Shown here piece by piece: positions 8,850 through 48,629 of a DNA stretch of 64,000 bases. The notes beneath the pieces are model-generated. The model did no database searches. It saw only the letters and a program-made list of their open reading frames with translations, and was not told the DNA's origin. The DNA comes from Marinicella meishanensis. Its GTDB lineage: Bacteria; Pseudomonadota; Gammaproteobacteria; Xanthomonadales; Marinicellaceae. The stretch spans positions 186,001 through 250,000 of the forward strand of contig NZ_JAIOUV010000001.1 of the NCBI RefSeq assembly GCF_019931145.1, given 5' to 3'. Numbering within the stretch: position 1 is the first letter of the stretch; each line of letters begins with the position of its first letter. Position numbers and translations under genes: made by a program.

Positions 8850-8980
8850 GCTGACGTCCTTTTGATGATTGATGGATCATTATAAGCCAGTTCTTCAATT
8901 AATGCGGGATCGAAGATCGTGATTCAGGAACAAGGTAGCTGAAGTCATGTTTTTCATTTGATCCCAGAAACACCTTTCTC

Positions 8981-9115
8981 GGAGCGCCGACTTCAGTCGG
9001 CGTCGGGCTGCACAGAATGTTCGATAAGAATGTTGGCAGTGATCTGCCCATAAGGTCTAAAAAAGATGGCTGCGGCTTGGCGCCTGGCCATTTCACCGAC
9101 TGAAGTCGGTGCTCC
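8981..9115. repeat. REPIN-like pair of inverted palindromic repeats
   Basis: GGAGCGCCGACTTCAGTCGG at 8981-9000 and its inverted partner CCGACTGAAGTCGGTGCTCC at 9096-9115 are each palindromic about TTCAG/CTGAA and stand in opposite orientation about 90 bases apart. This is the architecture of a REP doublet (REPIN), which is mobilised in trans by RAYT transposases. No RAYT gene is in the window. Confidence 0.65.
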
Positions 9116-9204
9116 AGTGGGGAGGGGCAGGATGCCAAAAAAGCCGGTCATTACGAGCCACGCAGTGGCGCGACAACCTTCATACGGCTGTCCACTACAT
9201 AAAT

Positions 9205-9900
9205 ATGACCGGTCGAAATGGAGATTCCTGCTTGCGCAGGAATGACGCGAACAAGATGTGGTCATCCCGACCGAACGCAGTGAGTGGAGGGATCTCAAGG
9301 GCGGACTGAGATCCCTGGCCTACATGGATGTAGGTCTGCCGCGTGAGCAGGACGCGAAAGCGGCCGGCTTCGCTCGGGATGACTTTGATTCTTTTTTTAG
9401 CGCTGAGGTGTGTCGTCGCGGAAACGGACGGCTTCATTCTTCAAAGACAATACTCAGGATCGCAGAGCTTGTCGAAGCGAATATGTTGTTTGAAGTATTT
9501 TCCAAAACACAATGACACTTCGACAGGCTCAGTGACCTGACTGAATGTTTTTGGGTCCCTTACAACCAGAGACAAAGGTATGCCGTATGAGCAGGATGCA
9601 ATAACCGCCAGGTTCGCACTTAATGACAATACTCAAGATTGCTGAGCCTGTCGAAGCGAATATGTTGTTTTAAGTATTTTCCAAAACACAATGACACTTC
9701 GACAGGCTCAGTGACCTGACTGAATGTTTTTGGGTCCCTTACAACCAGAGACAAAGGTATGCCGACTGAGCAGTAAGCGGATACGGCCGGTTTCAAAAAC
9801 TTTTGCTGCGCTTGCCGAATTTGTAGTCGAATGCACTTGATGAGGTCCCTCGCCTCCATGGACGGAGGTGTGCCGTGCAAGCAGGACGCGGAAACGCCGG
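9205..9900. repeat. dispersed hairpin repeats of the ATGGAT/CATCC family
   Basis: Several short hairpins recur: CCTACATGGATGTAGG (about 9318-9333) followed by TCTGCCGCGTGAGCAGGACGCG; CCTCCATGGACGGAGG (about 9854-9869) followed by TGTGCCGTGCAAGCAGGACGCGG; TTCCTGCTTGCGCAGGAA (9225-9242); and GTCATCCCGACCGAACGCAG (9261-9280). Relatives are at about 1732-1742 and 28412-28425. Together with the REPIN and the tandem repeat they fill 8850-9940, a stretch with no credible gene: the small ORFs here cross repeat boundaries and have no ribosome sites. Confidence 0.55.
9446..9766. repeat. two near-identical ~142-base direct repeats, period 179
   Basis: Copy 1 (9446-9587) and copy 2 (9625-9766) differ at only a few positions. 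Each copy carries inverted arms (GAGC(T/C)TGTCGAAG ... CTTCGACAGGCTCAG), so each can fold into a large hairpin. Both end in the phrase CAAAGGTATGCCG. Confidence 0.8.
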
Positions 9901-30770: not shown

Positions 30771-30871
30771 GATGACTCCTGTTCCACCCGAACATGAAGG
30801 GTCTCAATGCCAAGCTTTGGCGATTGAGAAAAAGTTGCAAATTGAACGCCAAGGCGCCCACTCAACTTCGA

Positions 30872-31062
30872 GAGGTCGGTCTCCGGACTCGTCTTCTGGG
30901 TGGTCATGAAGTGACTTTGACCCTCAATCAACCGCCTTCCCATGCTTGCACACAGTGGCATCTTGGTTGATCATTTCCAACTTACCGTTGCGGGGGCAGT
31001 GCTGGCCTTGAAACCAAAAGTTTCGCACCAGCTTCCCGTTTAACCTGGCAGAACCAGGACCT
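30872..31062 (-). ncRNA. cobalamin riboswitch
   Basis: On the minus strand, about 100 bases before the receptor ATG, are the conserved elements in order: ACGGGAAGCTGGTGCGAAAC (near 31042), CCAGCACTGCCCCCGCAACG with GTAAG (about 31000-30976), and the B12 box-like GAGTCCGGAGACCGACCT (about 30890-30873). The spacing is right for the cobalamin riboswitch. It should lower expression of the receptor when cobalamin is plentiful. The approximate ends are set by the outermost conserved bases. Confidence 0.93.
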
Positions 31063-31142
31063 TTCAAAGGGTCATGACATGCTAATGAGTGGCCCAACCA
31101 TTGTCAACCCCAAATTGCCCCTTGTGGTTGAGCTAACCTGGG

Positions 31143-43139: not shown

Positions 43140-44546
43140 ATGCTGTTCAACACACCGATCTTTTTTGCTTTTTTGATGGTGTTCTTGTTGTTTTATGGCT
43201 TTGTGTTTTTGCGCCATAAACCCAGGATCTACTTCATCCTCGTCTCTTCGCTGGTGTTTTACGGCACCTGGAATTACCGCTTCATCCCGCTGTTGGTGGG
43301 CTCGGCGGTCATTGACTATTTCCTCGCCCAAGCGATTTACAATGCCAGTGACCAACGGCGCAAAAAACTGTTTTTGACCTTGTCGGTGGTGATGAACCTG
43401 GGCATCCTCGCGCTGTTCAAGTACGCCGACTTTGCCATCCAGTCGGTGGCTGATTTCCTCGGGGTGTTGGGTTACCAGTCCGACTTGGGCTCGCTGTCTT
43501 GGGTGTTGCCGGTGGGCATTTCCTTCTACACCTTCCAATCCTTGAGTTACACCATCGACGTCTACCGCGGCGAGATGAAAGCGCGCAAAGGCCTGGCCGA
43601 ATTCACCACCGCGTTGGCGTTTTTTCCCCAATTGGTGGCCGGTCCGATCCTCCGGGCCAAACACATCCTGCCGCAGTTCCATAAACTGCCGTTGCCGACC
43701 TGGCTGATGGTCAAGAACGGCTTTTTGTTGATCACCATCGGCTTGTTGAAAAAAACCATGGCCGATTTGTTGGCGGCGCCAGCAGCCATGGCCTTTGATC
43801 AAGGGCCGGTGAGTTTGCTGGAAACCTGGACCGGGGTGCTGGCCTTTGCCGGTCAGATCTACGGCGATTTTTCCGGCTACAGTGACATGGCCATCGGCAT
43901 CGCCTTGTTGATTGGTTTCAAGATTCCGCTGAACTTCCGCTTGCCGTATTTTGCGCTGTCACCGGTGCAATTCTGGCAGCGTTGGCACATATCCCTGTCG
44001 ACCTGGTTGCGCGATTACCTGTACATCTCCTTGGGGGGTAAATACAACCGCATCCGCAACGTGATGATCACCATGTTGCTCGGTGGCTTGTGGCACGGCG
44101 CGGCCTGGACCTTTGTCGCCTGGGGTGCCTTCCACGGCCTGATCATCATCGCCACCCACCAACTGGGCACCAGCGCGGCATTTGCCGGCTTTGCCCAGAG
44201 CCAGCGCTTTTTCAACAAGCTGTTCAAATGGCTGATCACCTTCTACCTGGTGTTGATTGGCTGGGTGTTGTTCCGCGCCACCGGCATGGATTCGGCTTGG
44301 GACATCATCACCCAGATGCATGGCTTGGCGGGCAGCTTGCCGGCGTCGGGCTCCAAAGCCCTGATCATCTTTGGACTGACGGTGGGTGCCTTGATTTTCA
44401 TGCACCTGATTGATGCCCTGGTGCTGAAAAAATCAGCCGGTTGGATGGCCCGCTGGTGGCTGTTCTGGCCGTCCTTGATCCTCATCCAAGCCATTTGTTT
44501 ACTCATTGGAGAACCCAGCAATGCCTTCATCTATTTCCAATTCTGA
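43140..44546 (+). CDS. MBOAT family O-acyltransferase (AlgI-like)
   Basis: 468 residues with about ten hydrophobic helices. N-terminus PRIYFILVSSLVFYGTWN, then WVLPVGISFYTFQSLSYTIDVYRGE (about 120-144), FFPQLVAGPILRA and the active-site region FWQRWHISLSTWLRDYLYI with the catalytic His in GGLWHGAAWTFVAWG (about 316-330). Such proteins move acyl groups, usually acetyl, across the inner membrane to extracellular polysaccharides or to other acceptors. The next gene (SGNH/AlgJ-like) starts inside its last 26 bases, so they act as a pair. No alginate synthesis genes are nearby. Confidence 0.92.
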   Translation: MLFNTPIFFAFLMVFLLFYGFVFLRHKPRIYFILVSSLVFYGTWNYRFIPLLVGSAVIDYFLAQAIYNASDQRRKKLFLTLSVVMNLGILALFKYADFAIQSVADFLGVLGYQSDLGSLSWVLPVGISFYTFQSLSYTIDVYRGEMKARKGLAEFTTALAFFPQLVAGPILRAKHILPQFHKLPLPTWLMVKNGFLLITIGLLKKTMADLLAAPAAMAFDQGPVSLLETWTGVLAFAGQIYGDFSGYSDMAIGIALLIGFKIPLNFRLPYFALSPVQFWQRWHISLSTWLRDYLYISLGGKYNRIRNVMITMLLGGLWHGAAWTFVAWGAFHGLIIIATHQLGTSAAFAGFAQSQRFFNKLFKWLITFYLVLIGWVLFRATGMDSAWDIITQMHGLAGSLPASGSKALIIFGLTVGALIFMHLIDALVLKKSAGWMARWWLFWPSLILIQAICLLIGEPSNAFIYFQF

Positions 44547-45855
44547 CTCAACTGACATGAACGCAAGTAACTTGAACACAGGCACCGGCGATCCAAAAAA
44601 CAGCGACCCAGGCAACAAACACCCCATGTATCCGGTCGGGGCACAAGGGGAAAATCTGGAGGCGTCTGAAGGGATGCGCCAAGGTATTTATGGCAAAACC
44701 CTGTTGTTAATTTTACTTGGCATGGGCCTGGCGCTGGCCATGATCCGCGTCTTTGCCTGGTCAATGGATGCCGGACCCACCGACTTTTTAGGTCGCGTGT
44801 TGGAAGCCAAAGACGCCCTGCCGCAGGTGGTCAAAGAAGACAAAGAGCTGGTCATGGTATTCGGCTCTTCCATGGTGCAAGCCGGTTTTTCACCCCGCGA
44901 ATTTGACCAATGGGCGGCAGAACGCGGTTATGAGAACATCAAGTCCTTCAATTACGGTTTTGGTGGGCTCAACCCCTTTTACCAAGAGGTCCTGACCCGC
45001 CGCATCAAAGACGTGTTCGATGAAAACAACCGCCGATTAAAAGTGGCGGTGATTGAATTCAATCCGTTCCAAACCACCATCACCCGCTACAACCGCAACC
45101 GCATCCTGGAAGATTCATACCTCACCATTTTGGGTACCAATGCCGAGTTGTGGGACATCATGCTGGCCGATCCCACCCGTGGCTTTCGCTTGTTCAACAT
45201 CAAATACCTGCGCAACAGCATCTCGGCCGAGATGGCCACCAGTTTTTTGGGTGGCTCCTTGCGCGAACCCCGCAAACGCACCGAATTGGAGCGTGATCCC
45301 GAACGCAGGGAACGCTTGGATGAGGTGGGTGATTTGTTGAACCAAGCCTTCGAGGAAGAATACCCCGACTATGTACCCAGCAATTGGTCCTATGAATGGC
45401 AAGGTGGTGGCACCATCGCGGCTGAACGCAAACCAGAAACCCTGGCCATCTTCGAAGAGTATTATGAGTTGATCAGAGACCCGGCAAGGATGGATGATGC
45501 GCGCTTGAACCGCATCCACACCGCCGACATCATCGACATGCATTTCAGCGAAGAATTGGTCGTTAAATTCATCGACCTGGTCAACCAATTCAAAACCTTT
45601 TCCGATCACGTCGAGGTGGTGATGCTGCCGCGCAACACCAAATGGATCACCCATTCGGCAGCCGGCGCGAAGCGACTGCGTGAAACCGTGCAACGCATCG
45701 AGCAAGCCACCGGCGTGACCATTGCCAACCACCAGGACTTGCCGGTGATCAAACCAACCATGTTCAGCGACGCCACGCATTTGAATCGCTATCAGGGGGC
45801 ACACAACTACACCAAGTACTTGGTGGATTACATTGAACCCCACTTGCGACCCTGA
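44521..45855 (+). CDS. membrane-anchored SGNH/AlgJ-like partner of the MBOAT protein
   Basis: 444 residues from ATG 44521 (GGAG eight bases upstream); a TTG at 44506 is possible but less likely. A polar N-terminus of about 55 residues, one transmembrane helix (about 60-78, LLLILLGMGLALAMIRVF), then a periplasmic domain. It has VMVFGSSMVQAGFSP (about 117-131; GxS near the SGNH block I position), NYGFGGLNPFYQ and a C-terminal SDATHLNRYQGAHNYT with the D-x-x-H pair of SGNH enzymes. It overlaps the MBOAT gene by 26 bases. Likely completes transfer of the acyl group to its acceptor outside the membrane; acceptor unknown. Confidence 0.82.
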   Translation: MPSSISNSDSTDMNASNLNTGTGDPKNSDPGNKHPMYPVGAQGENLEASEGMRQGIYGKTLLLILLGMGLALAMIRVFAWSMDAGPTDFLGRVLEAKDALPQVVKEDKELVMVFGSSMVQAGFSPREFDQWAAERGYENIKSFNYGFGGLNPFYQEVLTRRIKDVFDENNRRLKVAVIEFNPFQTTITRYNRNRILEDSYLTILGTNAELWDIMLADPTRGFRLFNIKYLRNSISAEMATSFLGGSLREPRKRTELERDPERRERLDEVGDLLNQAFEEEYPDYVPSNWSYEWQGGGTIAAERKPETLAIFEEYYELIRDPARMDDARLNRIHTADIIDMHFSEELVVKFIDLVNQFKTFSDHVEVVMLPRNTKWITHSAAGAKRLRETVQRIEQATGVTIANHQDLPVIKPTMFSDATHLNRYQGAHNYTKYLVDYIEPHLRP

Positions 45856-45882: not shown

Positions 45883-46422
45883 ATGGCTGGGATGAAACGC
45901 CGCAAATTGTTGAAAAGGTCTTTGTTGTTGGGTACCGCCGGATTGGTGGCCGGTGGCGGTTGGTGGCTGCACAACGGAGAAGACCTGGCCATGCTGACCA
46001 TCGAACAATGCCAACAGCGCTTGCGTGATCTGCCGTTGAATCGGATCAAAGTGGTTGGTGAATGGAACCTGGCGCAGGTGTTCAATCATTTGGCCCAGAG
46101 CATCGAGTATTCGATGACCGGCTACCCCCAACACAAATCCGACGCCTTCAAAAAATACCTGGGGCAACACGCCTTTGCGGTGTTTACCTACCGCGGTCGC
46201 ATGGCCCATGACCTGGCCGAAGCGATTCCGGGTGCGGCACCCTTGGCCGACCACAACGCCGAGCAGGCACTTGCTCGTTTGCTGCAAGCCTTGACGGATT
46301 TTCAAAACCACCCAGGTGACTTGCAGCCGCATTTTGCCTACGGTGAATTGACCCCACAAGAATACACCTGGGCCCATGTGATGCATGTGTACAATCACTT
46401 GGAAGCTTTTGAGGTGGTGTAA
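45883..46422 (+). CDS. DUF1569 family protein with twin-arginine-like signal
   Basis: 179 residues (176 from the ATG at 45892, which is equally likely). The N-terminus KRRKLLKRSLLLGTAGLVAGG has a twin-arginine pair followed by a hydrophobic core, suggesting Tat export. The body has WNLAQVFNHLAQSIEYSMTGYP and TPQEYTWAHVMHVYNHLEAF, the helix-bundle pattern of DUF1569, a DinB/metal-binding-like family of unknown role. It lies 28 bases after the SGNH gene and may be co-transcribed. Confidence 0.8.
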   Translation: MAGMKRRKLLKRSLLLGTAGLVAGGGWWLHNGEDLAMLTIEQCQQRLRDLPLNRIKVVGEWNLAQVFNHLAQSIEYSMTGYPQHKSDAFKKYLGQHAFAVFTYRGRMAHDLAEAIPGAAPLADHNAEQALARLLQALTDFQNHPGDLQPHFAYGELTPQEYTWAHVMHVYNHLEAFEVV

Positions 46423-46449
46423 TCAAAGATCAATGAAGTGGTTGGTGCG

Positions 46450-46828
46450 AAAAACCTTGGCTCATCCTTGAGCTGATTTCCTTGCTTTCCTTGATATAAA
46501 CTGTTGCTGGCTTGGCTCCTGCCAAAGCACCGCCTGGTTGCCTGCCTGCGCCCATCCCTGGGACCCAAACCCTTCCTGGTGGCATTCCCTGCTGGGCCAT
46601 TCCTGGGCCCGGTTCCCGGTCCTTGTCCTGACCGTTTTTTGGCGGCATCCTGCCTGCCATTGCCATCCTGGCCACCACCGTCCTGTGGTGCTGTGAGGCG
46701 GTCTTCCTGACCGACCCCAAAATTTTTGAACGCCACTGCTTGCCTTGATCCATCCTTGGCCCATCCTTGGGCAATTGGCTCCTTGCCGTCCGTCGTTTTT
46801 CAACAAGAAAGAGGAGTCAGCAATGTGT
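46450..46828 (-). ncRNA. CsrB/RsmZ-like CsrA-sequestering RNA (candidate)
   Basis: The minus strand of this gene-free stretch holds 20 GGA trinucleotides in about 380 bases, 15 of them as AGGA. Most sit in apical loops of short hairpins: GCCC-AAGGAT-GGGC (46772-46759), GGTC-AGGAA-GACC, ACCAC-AGGACG-GTGGT, GCC-AGGAT-GGC, GGC-AGGAT-GCC, CGGTC-AGGACAAG-GACCG, GGGCC-CAGGAAT-GGCCC, CCC-AGGGAT-GGG, GGC-AGGA-GCC and GCTC-AAGGAT-GAGC (46473-46460). This is the design of CsrB-type RNAs, which bind many CsrA dimers, and the length matches CsrB (about 370). A -10-like TATAAG lies at 46840-46835; a TTGACA (46870-46865) is too far for a normal -35, so activation may be needed. The 3' end is set by the last hairpin and TTTTT (46454-46450). 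ORFs across it are low-complexity and frame-inconsistent. Confidence 0.82.
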
Positions 46829-46991
46829 TGCTTACTTATATACTCGCGAAACGGCGCCAAACCTTGTCAAAAAAGTTGAAAAAAGTTTGTTGGCGCTGTT
46901 TTACCACCCCAGCCAAGCCCACCGTTGACATGGGTGACCGCACCAAAAGAGGCTGGTACAATGATTGAATATCCCCAAGACAGCAGCCGCC

Positions 46992-48629
46992 ATGCCCGAC
47001 ACCCACCAAGTCAAAAACCAACCTTTACCATTGCACAACCACAACCTGTACTTGAGCGACCCACAACTGCAACACTGGCTGTCTTGTTATGGTGGTGACT
47101 GGGGGGCCAAGTCGGTCAGCCGCCTGGGTGCCACTTTGGGCCAGGAAGCCTGGATCGAGCGGGGCTTTTTGGCCAACCAACTCACCCCGGAATTGCACAC
47201 CCACGACACCCGAGGCCACCGCCGCGACCTGGTCAAATACCACCCGGCTTACCATGAACTGATGGCCCTGGCGATCAAACACAACATCCACGCCTTACCG
47301 TGGCAACAGCCTGAACCCGGGGCCCACCTGGTGCGCCTGGCCAAAAATTACTGCCATAATCAAAACGAAGCCGGCAGCGCCTGTCCCTTGACCATGACCT
47401 TTGCCTGTGTGCCGAGCTTGCAACAATCGGCCGCTTTGAGCCAACACTGGATTCCCAAGGTGTGGTCCAGCCAGTACGATCCCAGCAATCGCCCCATGCA
47501 AGACAAAACCGGCCTCACCATTGGCATGGCCATGACCGAAAAACAAGGCGGCACCGATGTGCGGGCCAACACCAGCCGCGCCTCCCACCAAGGCTCAGGC
47601 GCATGGGGTGAACGCTACGCCTTGACCGGGCACAAGTGGTTTTGTTCGGCGCCCATGAGTGATGCCTTTTTGACCTTGGCGCAAACCGATCAAGGCCTGG
47701 GTTGTTTTCTGCTGCCCCGCTGGCAACTCGACCAAAACAAAAACCGCGTGCACATCCAACGCCTAAAAAACAAACTCGGCAACCGCGCCAACGCCTCGTC
47801 TGAAATCGAGTTCGAACAGGCCGAAGCCTGGTTGATCGGTGAACCGGGGCGTGGGGTGGCGACCATCATCCAAATGGTGGCCTTGACCCGTTATGACTGC
47901 ATGATCGGCTCCACCGCCTTGATGCGACAGGCCCTGGCTCAAGTGGTCAACCACATCAGCCAGCGCCAAGTCATGGGTCAGTTGTTGATCGACCAAGCCT
48001 TGATGCAGAACGTGGTGGTCGATCTGGCCTTGGATTGGGTCGGGGCCTTGGCCCTGACCGCCCGCATGGCCCAGGCTTTGGACCACAGCGATCAGCCCAC
48101 CGAACAGCACCTGATCCGACTGCTCACGTCGGTGGGTAAATTTTGGATCTGCAAACAAGCCATGGCGGTGACCGCCGAAGCCGCCGAATGTTTGGGCGGC
48201 GCCGGTTACATCGAAGACCACATCAACGCCCGGCTGTTTCGCGAAGCGCCGGTCAACTCGATCTGGGAAGGCAGCGGCAACGTGCAATGCCTGGACGTGA
48301 TCCGGGCGCTGCAAAAAAGCCCCGAAGTGTGGCCAACCCTGACCCAACTGTTGCAACAAGCCGCCGGACAACACGCGGGGTTTGATCGGTCGCTGAGTCA
48401 GTTTTTGGAGGACAGCGACATCCAGCAACTGCAACCCTTCGCGGCGCGCCATTGGGTCTCGCGGCTGGCGGTGTTGACCCAAGCGGCGTTGTTGTTACAA
48501 CATGGCCACCCGGAATGGGCCCAAGCCTATTGCGATGCCCGCCTGGAATCAGCGGTGTTCGGCCCATATGGCCAGTTACCACGCTCGGTCGACACCGATG
48601 ATTTGATCCGCAAGATTTTGTTGCTGTGA
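46992..48629 (+). CDS. aidB: acyl-CoA dehydrogenase family protein, AidB-like
   Basis: 545 residues from ATG 46992, close to E. coli AidB (541); a TTG at 46965 would add nine residues. It begins VKNQPLPLHNHNLYLSD, a close match to AidB's N-terminus pattern. It has GMAMTEKQGGTDVRANT (about 183-199) and WFCSAPMSDAFLTLAQ, the substrate and FAD region of the family, and AECLGGAGYIEDHINARLFREAPVNSIWEGSGNV (about 410-443). AidB is an FAD protein with weak isovaleryl-CoA dehydrogenase activity, induced with the adaptive response to alkylation damage. No ada or alkB is nearby. Confidence 0.9.
   Translation: MPDTHQVKNQPLPLHNHNLYLSDPQLQHWLSCYGGDWGAKSVSRLGATLGQEAWIERGFLANQLTPELHTHDTRGHRRDLVKYHPAYHELMALAIKHNIHALPWQQPEPGAHLVRLAKNYCHNQNEAGSACPLTMTFACVPSLQQSAALSQHWIPKVWSSQYDPSNRPMQDKTGLTIGMAMTEKQGGTDVRANTSRASHQGSGAWGERYALTGHKWFCSAPMSDAFLTLAQTDQGLGCFLLPRWQLDQNKNRVHIQRLKNKLGNRANASSEIEFEQAEAWLIGEPGRGVATIIQMVALTRYDCMIGSTALMRQALAQVVNHISQRQVMGQLLIDQALMQNVVVDLALDWVGALALTARMAQALDHSDQPTEQHLIRLLTSVGKFWICKQAMAVTAEAAECLGGAGYIEDHINARLFREAPVNSIWEGSGNVQCLDVIRALQKSPEVWPTLTQLLQQAAGQHAGFDRSLSQFLEDSDIQQLQPFAARHWVSRLAVLTQAALLLQHGHPEWAQAYCDARLESAVFGPYGQLPRSVDTDDLIRKILLL

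Follow-up and report, generated by a model that had tools for sequence, protein, structure and literature searches.

An intergenic region of Marinicella meishanensis very probably encodes, on its minus strand, a stand-alone RNA that sequesters CsrA and resembles CsrB in function. The region lies at positions 46450–46828 of the window, the 64,000-nucleotide stretch of DNA that was analysed. The sponge reading is well supported, and the kind of RNA is already known. Two features of the functional class are seen here: many GGA motifs, mostly AGGA, are held in hairpin loops beyond chance, and the organism's own genome encodes CsrA/RsmA. The initial annotation had proposed such a sponge, and the proposal is supported by loop tests, by results at least equal to those of E. 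coli CsrB, used as a yardstick, by a match, far below threshold, to the Rfam model RF00018, by the presence of csrA and by a promoter box and 3′ hairpin that recur in three other Marinicella. It had also called the RNA ‘the’ Csr sponge of its lineage; this is too strong, because 29 of 33 family genomes lack both of these signatures and the genome itself holds other arrays.

The expected transcription, CsrA binding and cellular effect are modelled on the CsrB system, as treated in a review (PMC7652899); like the exact ends, they are predictions. Transcription would run on the minus strand from the box at 46831–46870 to about 46450. The hairpin loops of the RNA would then display AGGA as sites for CsrA dimers, allowing one RNA to titrate several dimers away from mRNA leaders. 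Production of the RNA would relieve CsrA control and free the mRNAs.

Placement of GGA in the intergenic array

The array sits in a gap that opens after a DUF1569 gene (end at 46422) and closes at 46992 with the ATG of an AidB-like acyl-CoA dehydrogenase gene, limits that agree with those first reported. Both genes are on the plus strand, and the predicted RNA is oriented toward the former and away from the latter. Elsewhere in the window, an MBOAT acyltransferase gene precedes one whose DltD match is weak and below the cut-off (43140–45855), a pair which we take to be reminiscent of those for polymer O-acetylation. At 8970–9690 there is a REP-like intergenic stretch full of palindromes and repeated words, similar words being found after a gene in another genome (G012:C19). 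The features of the predicted RNA are as follows; hairpins come from the perfect-stem test unless stated otherwise.

46831–46870, minus strand: conserved promoter box TTGACAAG-N-TTT-N7-TTT-NN-CGAGTATATAAGTAAG, 0 mismatches here
46450–46829, minus strand: proposed non-coding RNA, about 380 nt, ends predicted from box and T-run, with the GGA count and loop placement as evidence
46805–46816, minus strand: C/U-rich stretch near the 5′ end, aligned by eye with C/U-rich counterparts in relatives
46770–46787, minus strand: hairpin with GGA in the loop and a 5-bp stem
46759–46772, minus strand: hairpin GCCCA-AGGA-TGGGC
46699–46713, minus strand: hairpin CGGTC-AGGAA-GACCG
46673–46690, minus strand: hairpin CACCAC-AGGACG-GTGGTG
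46662–46672, minus strand: hairpin GCCA-GGA-TGGC
46644–46658, minus strand: hairpin GGCA-GGCAGGA-TGCC
46617–46634, minus strand: hairpin CGGTC-AGGACAAG-GACCG
46594–46610, minus strand: hairpin GGGCC-CAGGAAT-GGCCC
46551–46562, minus strand: hairpin CCCA-GGGA-TGGG
46512–46525, minus strand: hairpin TTGGC-AGGA-GCCAA
46460–46473, minus strand: conserved 3′ hairpin GCTCA-AGGA-TGAGC, shared with at most 1 mismatch by the 4 of 33 family genomes that have the box
46450–46454, minus strand: T-run after a 5-nt gap from the 3′ hairpin, a possible RNA end (sequence and terminator scan)

A count on the minus strand returned the 20 GGA in about 380 bases originally reported; 15 of these motifs are AGGA and 11 fit ANGGA, and the plus strand of the same locus has only 2 GGA. 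This is the densest GGA cluster in the window, where other stretches of 379 nt reach at most 14 GGA or 7 AGGA. The annotation had further placed at least ten GGA in the loops of short perfect hairpins. Consistent with this, 10 of the 20 lie inside hairpin loops in the minimum free energy fold, and perfect stems of at least 4 bp close 11 of the 20. The shuffle test proposed at the outset was carried out, and 500 dinucleotide shuffles of the array gave 1.13 ± 1.09 GGA in loops with a maximum of 6. When the GGA were held fixed and the remainder shuffled (n = 2000), the controls had 1.69 ± 1.22 stem-closed GGA and a maximum of 8. Ensemble sampling of the fold yielded means of 10.1–10.4 loop GGA for four choices of ends, compared with 5.8% of the GGA of 149 other window segments. 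Across the window as a whole there is no marked loop excess of GGA in stems of at least 6 bp (14.5 per 1000, other triplets ranging from 8.2 to 14.5).

The signal of the locus is the position of GGA, not the stability of the fold, because the folding energy of the minus strand is unremarkable (z −1.31, mildly unusual, with 3% of shuffles equally low) and that of the plus strand is z −2.74. Stem sequences vary among the hairpins, and GGA is constant in the loop; this is the pattern that selection for a protein-binding loop would be expected to give.

Ends of the predicted RNA and its relatives in Marinicella

The TATAAG first described as a −10-like element upstream of the array is present at 46840–46835 on the minus strand. 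The promoter box is single copy in its own genome (searched at up to 3 mismatches) and occurs at 11 places in 4 of 33 family genomes. Eleven boxes were aligned, namely ten of these places (all but G007:C315, which is at the end of a contig) and a degenerate one beside a match to the 3′ tail; common to all are TTTTGACAAG, TTT, CGAGTAT and most of ATATAANTAAG. A promoter scan found no sigma-70 site on the minus strand at the locus. TTGACA and TATATA do occur in the promoter region, but at a spacing of 22 nt they are too far apart for an ordinary sigma-70 site. Upstream of four RNA copies, a search for the UvrY/GacA consensus TGTAAG-N6-CTTACA with up to 3 mismatches found no such box.

In two of the other genomes, G007 (L018) and G009 (L017), the promoter box also stands upstream of open reading frames with signal-peptide-like starts, as judged by eye; neither frame has a Pfam match. 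This arrangement suggests that the RNA may share a regulon with these genes. In one RNA copy of G009 (G009:C423; L022/L028), a stretch with inverted ends appears by eye to have been inserted in the promoter box.

At the 3′ end, the hairpin at 46473–46460 is followed by CAAGG and then by TTTTT at 46454–46450. The terminal hairpin and five T residues of the initial annotation thus both exist, but CAAGG stands between them, so that the arrangement does not read as a textbook rho-independent terminator. A terminator scan returned 3 terminator-like sites against 1.1 in shuffles.

When the locus was compared with 41 genomes, two pieces of it matched, namely the roughly 40-bp promoter box and the 3′ end containing the hairpin GCTCAAGGATGAGC; the matches were in its own genome and in three more. 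Separate searches of 33 family genomes with box and hairpin identified the same four, which besides its own are M. marina X102 (G003) and two uncultured Marinicella (G007 and G009). A loose scan for the box among 84,980 species genomes, a set that may leave out the window's own genome, returned 8 stretches, 1 in M. marina and 3 and 4 in the two uncultured Marinicella. Among 398 genomes of the order (Lysobacterales in the NCBI taxonomy), a model of the 3′ tail, run with filters able to lose weak matches, had 7 hits, all in the same 4 genomes. A further hairpin match in M. marina (G003:C17 near 42.4 kb) was set aside, there being no box nearby in the stretch read.

Between box and 3′ hairpin, the RNAs of the four genomes carry from about 3 to 20 GGA. 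As cut, the M. marina segment is 92 nt long with 4 GGA, that of G007 194 nt with 7 and one from G009 126 nt with 3. These short relatives do not rise above the controls of the loop test, of which 382, 169 and 360 in 1000 reach them. The RNA gene is not at a conserved genomic place, and the neighbours of the copies differ between genomes. No array was found upstream of six AidB-like orthologs outside the own genome, all from genomes without the promoter box; for two of them the flank available was no longer than 738 and 201 nt. A check for covariation among relatives had been called for; it speaks neither for nor against the prediction, because the shared 3′ hairpin is identical in 5 sequences, with all 5 pairs invariant, and the other hairpins are without a counterpart in the relatives.

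Comparison with known CsrA-sequestering RNAs

The genome has one csrA. The core that it encodes is nearly identical in 27 loci from 26 family genomes and matches solved CsrA/RsmA chains, and L4 and R44, residues highlighted in a review of CsrA (PMC7652899), are in place. The RNA-binding core of the encoded CsrA is conserved. In all, 7 of 33 family genomes gave no csrA match. G007 and G009, which make up half of the genomes with the RNA, also show none; both are metagenome-assembled genomes, of 340 and 530 contigs, and gaps may account for the missing gene. The genome also encodes a UvrY/GacA-like protein with 50% identity to E. coli UvrY and with response-regulator and LuxR-type domains.

An Rfam search had been suggested at the outset, and its outcome is divided. 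The CsrB/RsmB model RF00018 scores 24.0 bits on the locus against a gathering score of 71 (E 1e-4 over 601 bases), yet the locus is the only match to this model in its own genome at E ≤ 0.1 (E 1.6e-4 for the whole genome). Matches below the threshold also occur in the controls Bacillus subtilis and Thermotoga maritima, and such matches are not specific. With E up to 10, the locus matches CsrB and, weakly, four unrelated families; an RsmY/RsmZ/RsmX-type family was not among the matches listed, a listing that omits one lower score from the same clan. The only other RF00018 match in the family (G005:C171, E 0.04) was rejected, as it overlaps open frames. Within the window, Rfam thresholds are reached only by a tRNA and a cobalamin riboswitch (30857–31079, minus strand, 109.9 bits). 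Because of the low score and the lack of specificity below the threshold, the RNA is not assigned to RF00018 and is named a CsrB-like sponge; judged by sequence, it is not a demonstrated member and has no clear kinship to CsrB.

The likeness to E. coli CsrB is one of layout. CsrB and the predicted RNA are both about 370–380 nt long and intergenic, with a stand-alone gene that in Marinicella is putative, and about half of their GGA lie in hairpin loops: CsrB of MG1655 has 22 GGA, 9 in loops and 7 with stems, the corresponding figures for the window RNA being 20, 10 and 11. In the test with GGA held fixed, 2 of 1000 controls reach E. coli CsrB. Unlike CsrB, the window RNA has a different promoter box, no UvrY/GacA box within 3 mismatches and no textbook terminator. 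Its predicted working principle is shared with RsmY, RsmZ and RsmX of Pseudomonas, which are closer in size to the short Marinicella copies (about 90 to 190 nt, 3 to 7 GGA); unlike these, the Marinicella RNA has no GacA box that could be found upstream. A CsrA/RsmA-sequestering RNA from the same order, RsmU of Xanthomonas campestris, is described in PMC7694677: it has 3–4 GGA and is cut from the 3′ UTR of comEA, and changing all four GGA did not abolish its binding or effect. The window RNA, by contrast, has 20 GGA, lies between genes and is preceded by a conserved box of its own.

Two further arrays of the same genome are more like RsmU, as described there, in their location at the end of an mRNA. 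They came from a search for three close AGGA, which has 55 matches in the genome, 9 of them at the window locus as the largest cluster; next in size are 5 matches in G000:C15 near 56.1 kb and 3 in G000:C8 near 504.7 kb. The reversed control built into this search is useless, AGGA reading the same backwards. Each of the two lies directly after an open frame, in the case of C8 a TonB-like gene. The C8 array (L127:929-1066) has stems of at least 4 bp at 5 of its 9 GGA, which 0 of 1000 controls reach, and ends in a hairpin with an AGGA loop followed by TTTTT. It is not conserved: the 300 nt after the stop codon at 29 other loci with related genes hold at most 3 AGGA, as against 5. The C15 array (L126:1120-1380) consists of tandem copies of a unit of about 43 nt, with hairpins resembling CCCAAC-AGGA-GTTGGG and a terminal T-run, and does not stand out in the loop test, where 85 of 1000 controls equal it. 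From their sequences, C8 is a possible second and C15 a possible third CsrA-binding RNA. Rfam searches of six loci, including both arrays, returned nothing at E up to 0.1. Their position after genes recalls RNAs predicted from 3′ UTRs in Vibrio fischeri (PMC5568370).

The AGGA-triple pattern, listed with G013 covered in part and G007 and G017 left out, has other clusters. One in M. marina (G003:C17, L128:906-1080) is intergenic, has 8 AGGA and ends CACAAGGATGTGATTTT; 159 of 1000 controls reach it. Others are G013:C1, G012:C12 near 247.8 kb and G012:C12 near 252 kb, the last having no stem of 4 bp. The G012:C19 cluster was rejected, since by eye its hairpin and following words resemble the window repeats near 9317–9370.

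Alternative readings and significance

It is unlikely that the RNA, although real and perhaps able to bind CsrA, works mainly by base pairing with mRNAs through its C/U-rich 5′ part. The window copy and the relatives aligned with it have a C/U-rich stretch close to the 5′ end despite the changing length of the array, and PMC7652899 names McaS and GadY as RNAs that act by base pairing and antagonise CsrA as well. However, the stretch is largely paired in the predicted folds of the window and M. marina copies, and 20 CsrA-type sites far exceed what a side function would need. Less probable still is a REP-type cluster of intergenic repeats or palindromes, GGA-rich by chance and without a transcript of its own. 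The genome does contain palindrome-rich intergenic repeats, such as those at 8970–9690, to which the G012:C19 cluster turned out to be similar. Against this, internal repeats at the locus are short and imperfect only, the stems change from hairpin to hairpin while GGA remains in the loop, and the ends recur in other species with the array shortened or removed.

A short protein-coding gene on the minus strand is the most improbable of these readings. Open frames run through the locus at 46395–46736, 46430–46774 and 46462–46860, but the scarcity of T (15%) leaves all three frames mostly open. The GGA are in mixed phases (9/7/4) and the minus-strand frames have no Pfam match, on which grounds the array region is taken to be non-coding; the short relatives, moreover, are without the array.

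The preferred reading, a stand-alone CsrA-sequestering RNA, can be carried further, to a proposal that seems possible but against which we on balance incline. Marinicella would have its own family of Csr sponges, arisen apart from CsrB, RsmY and RsmZ, with constant ends (box and 3′ AGGA hairpin), from about 3 to 20 sites and varied genomic places. Its members would be driven by a regulator other than GacA, shared with genes for exported proteins, and in the window's own genome the CsrA-binding arrays after genes would serve as backup.

In one collection of papers, to which the literature search was confined, no work on CsrA in Marinicella was found, and small RNAs together with Marinicella returned, by title and abstract, only studies of microbial communities. 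If the prediction is true, a CsrB-like RNA with a gene of its own in Marinicella would close a gap apparent from PMC7694677 for one more family of the order. It would also suggest that CsrA sponges originate de novo, and through expansion of the array.
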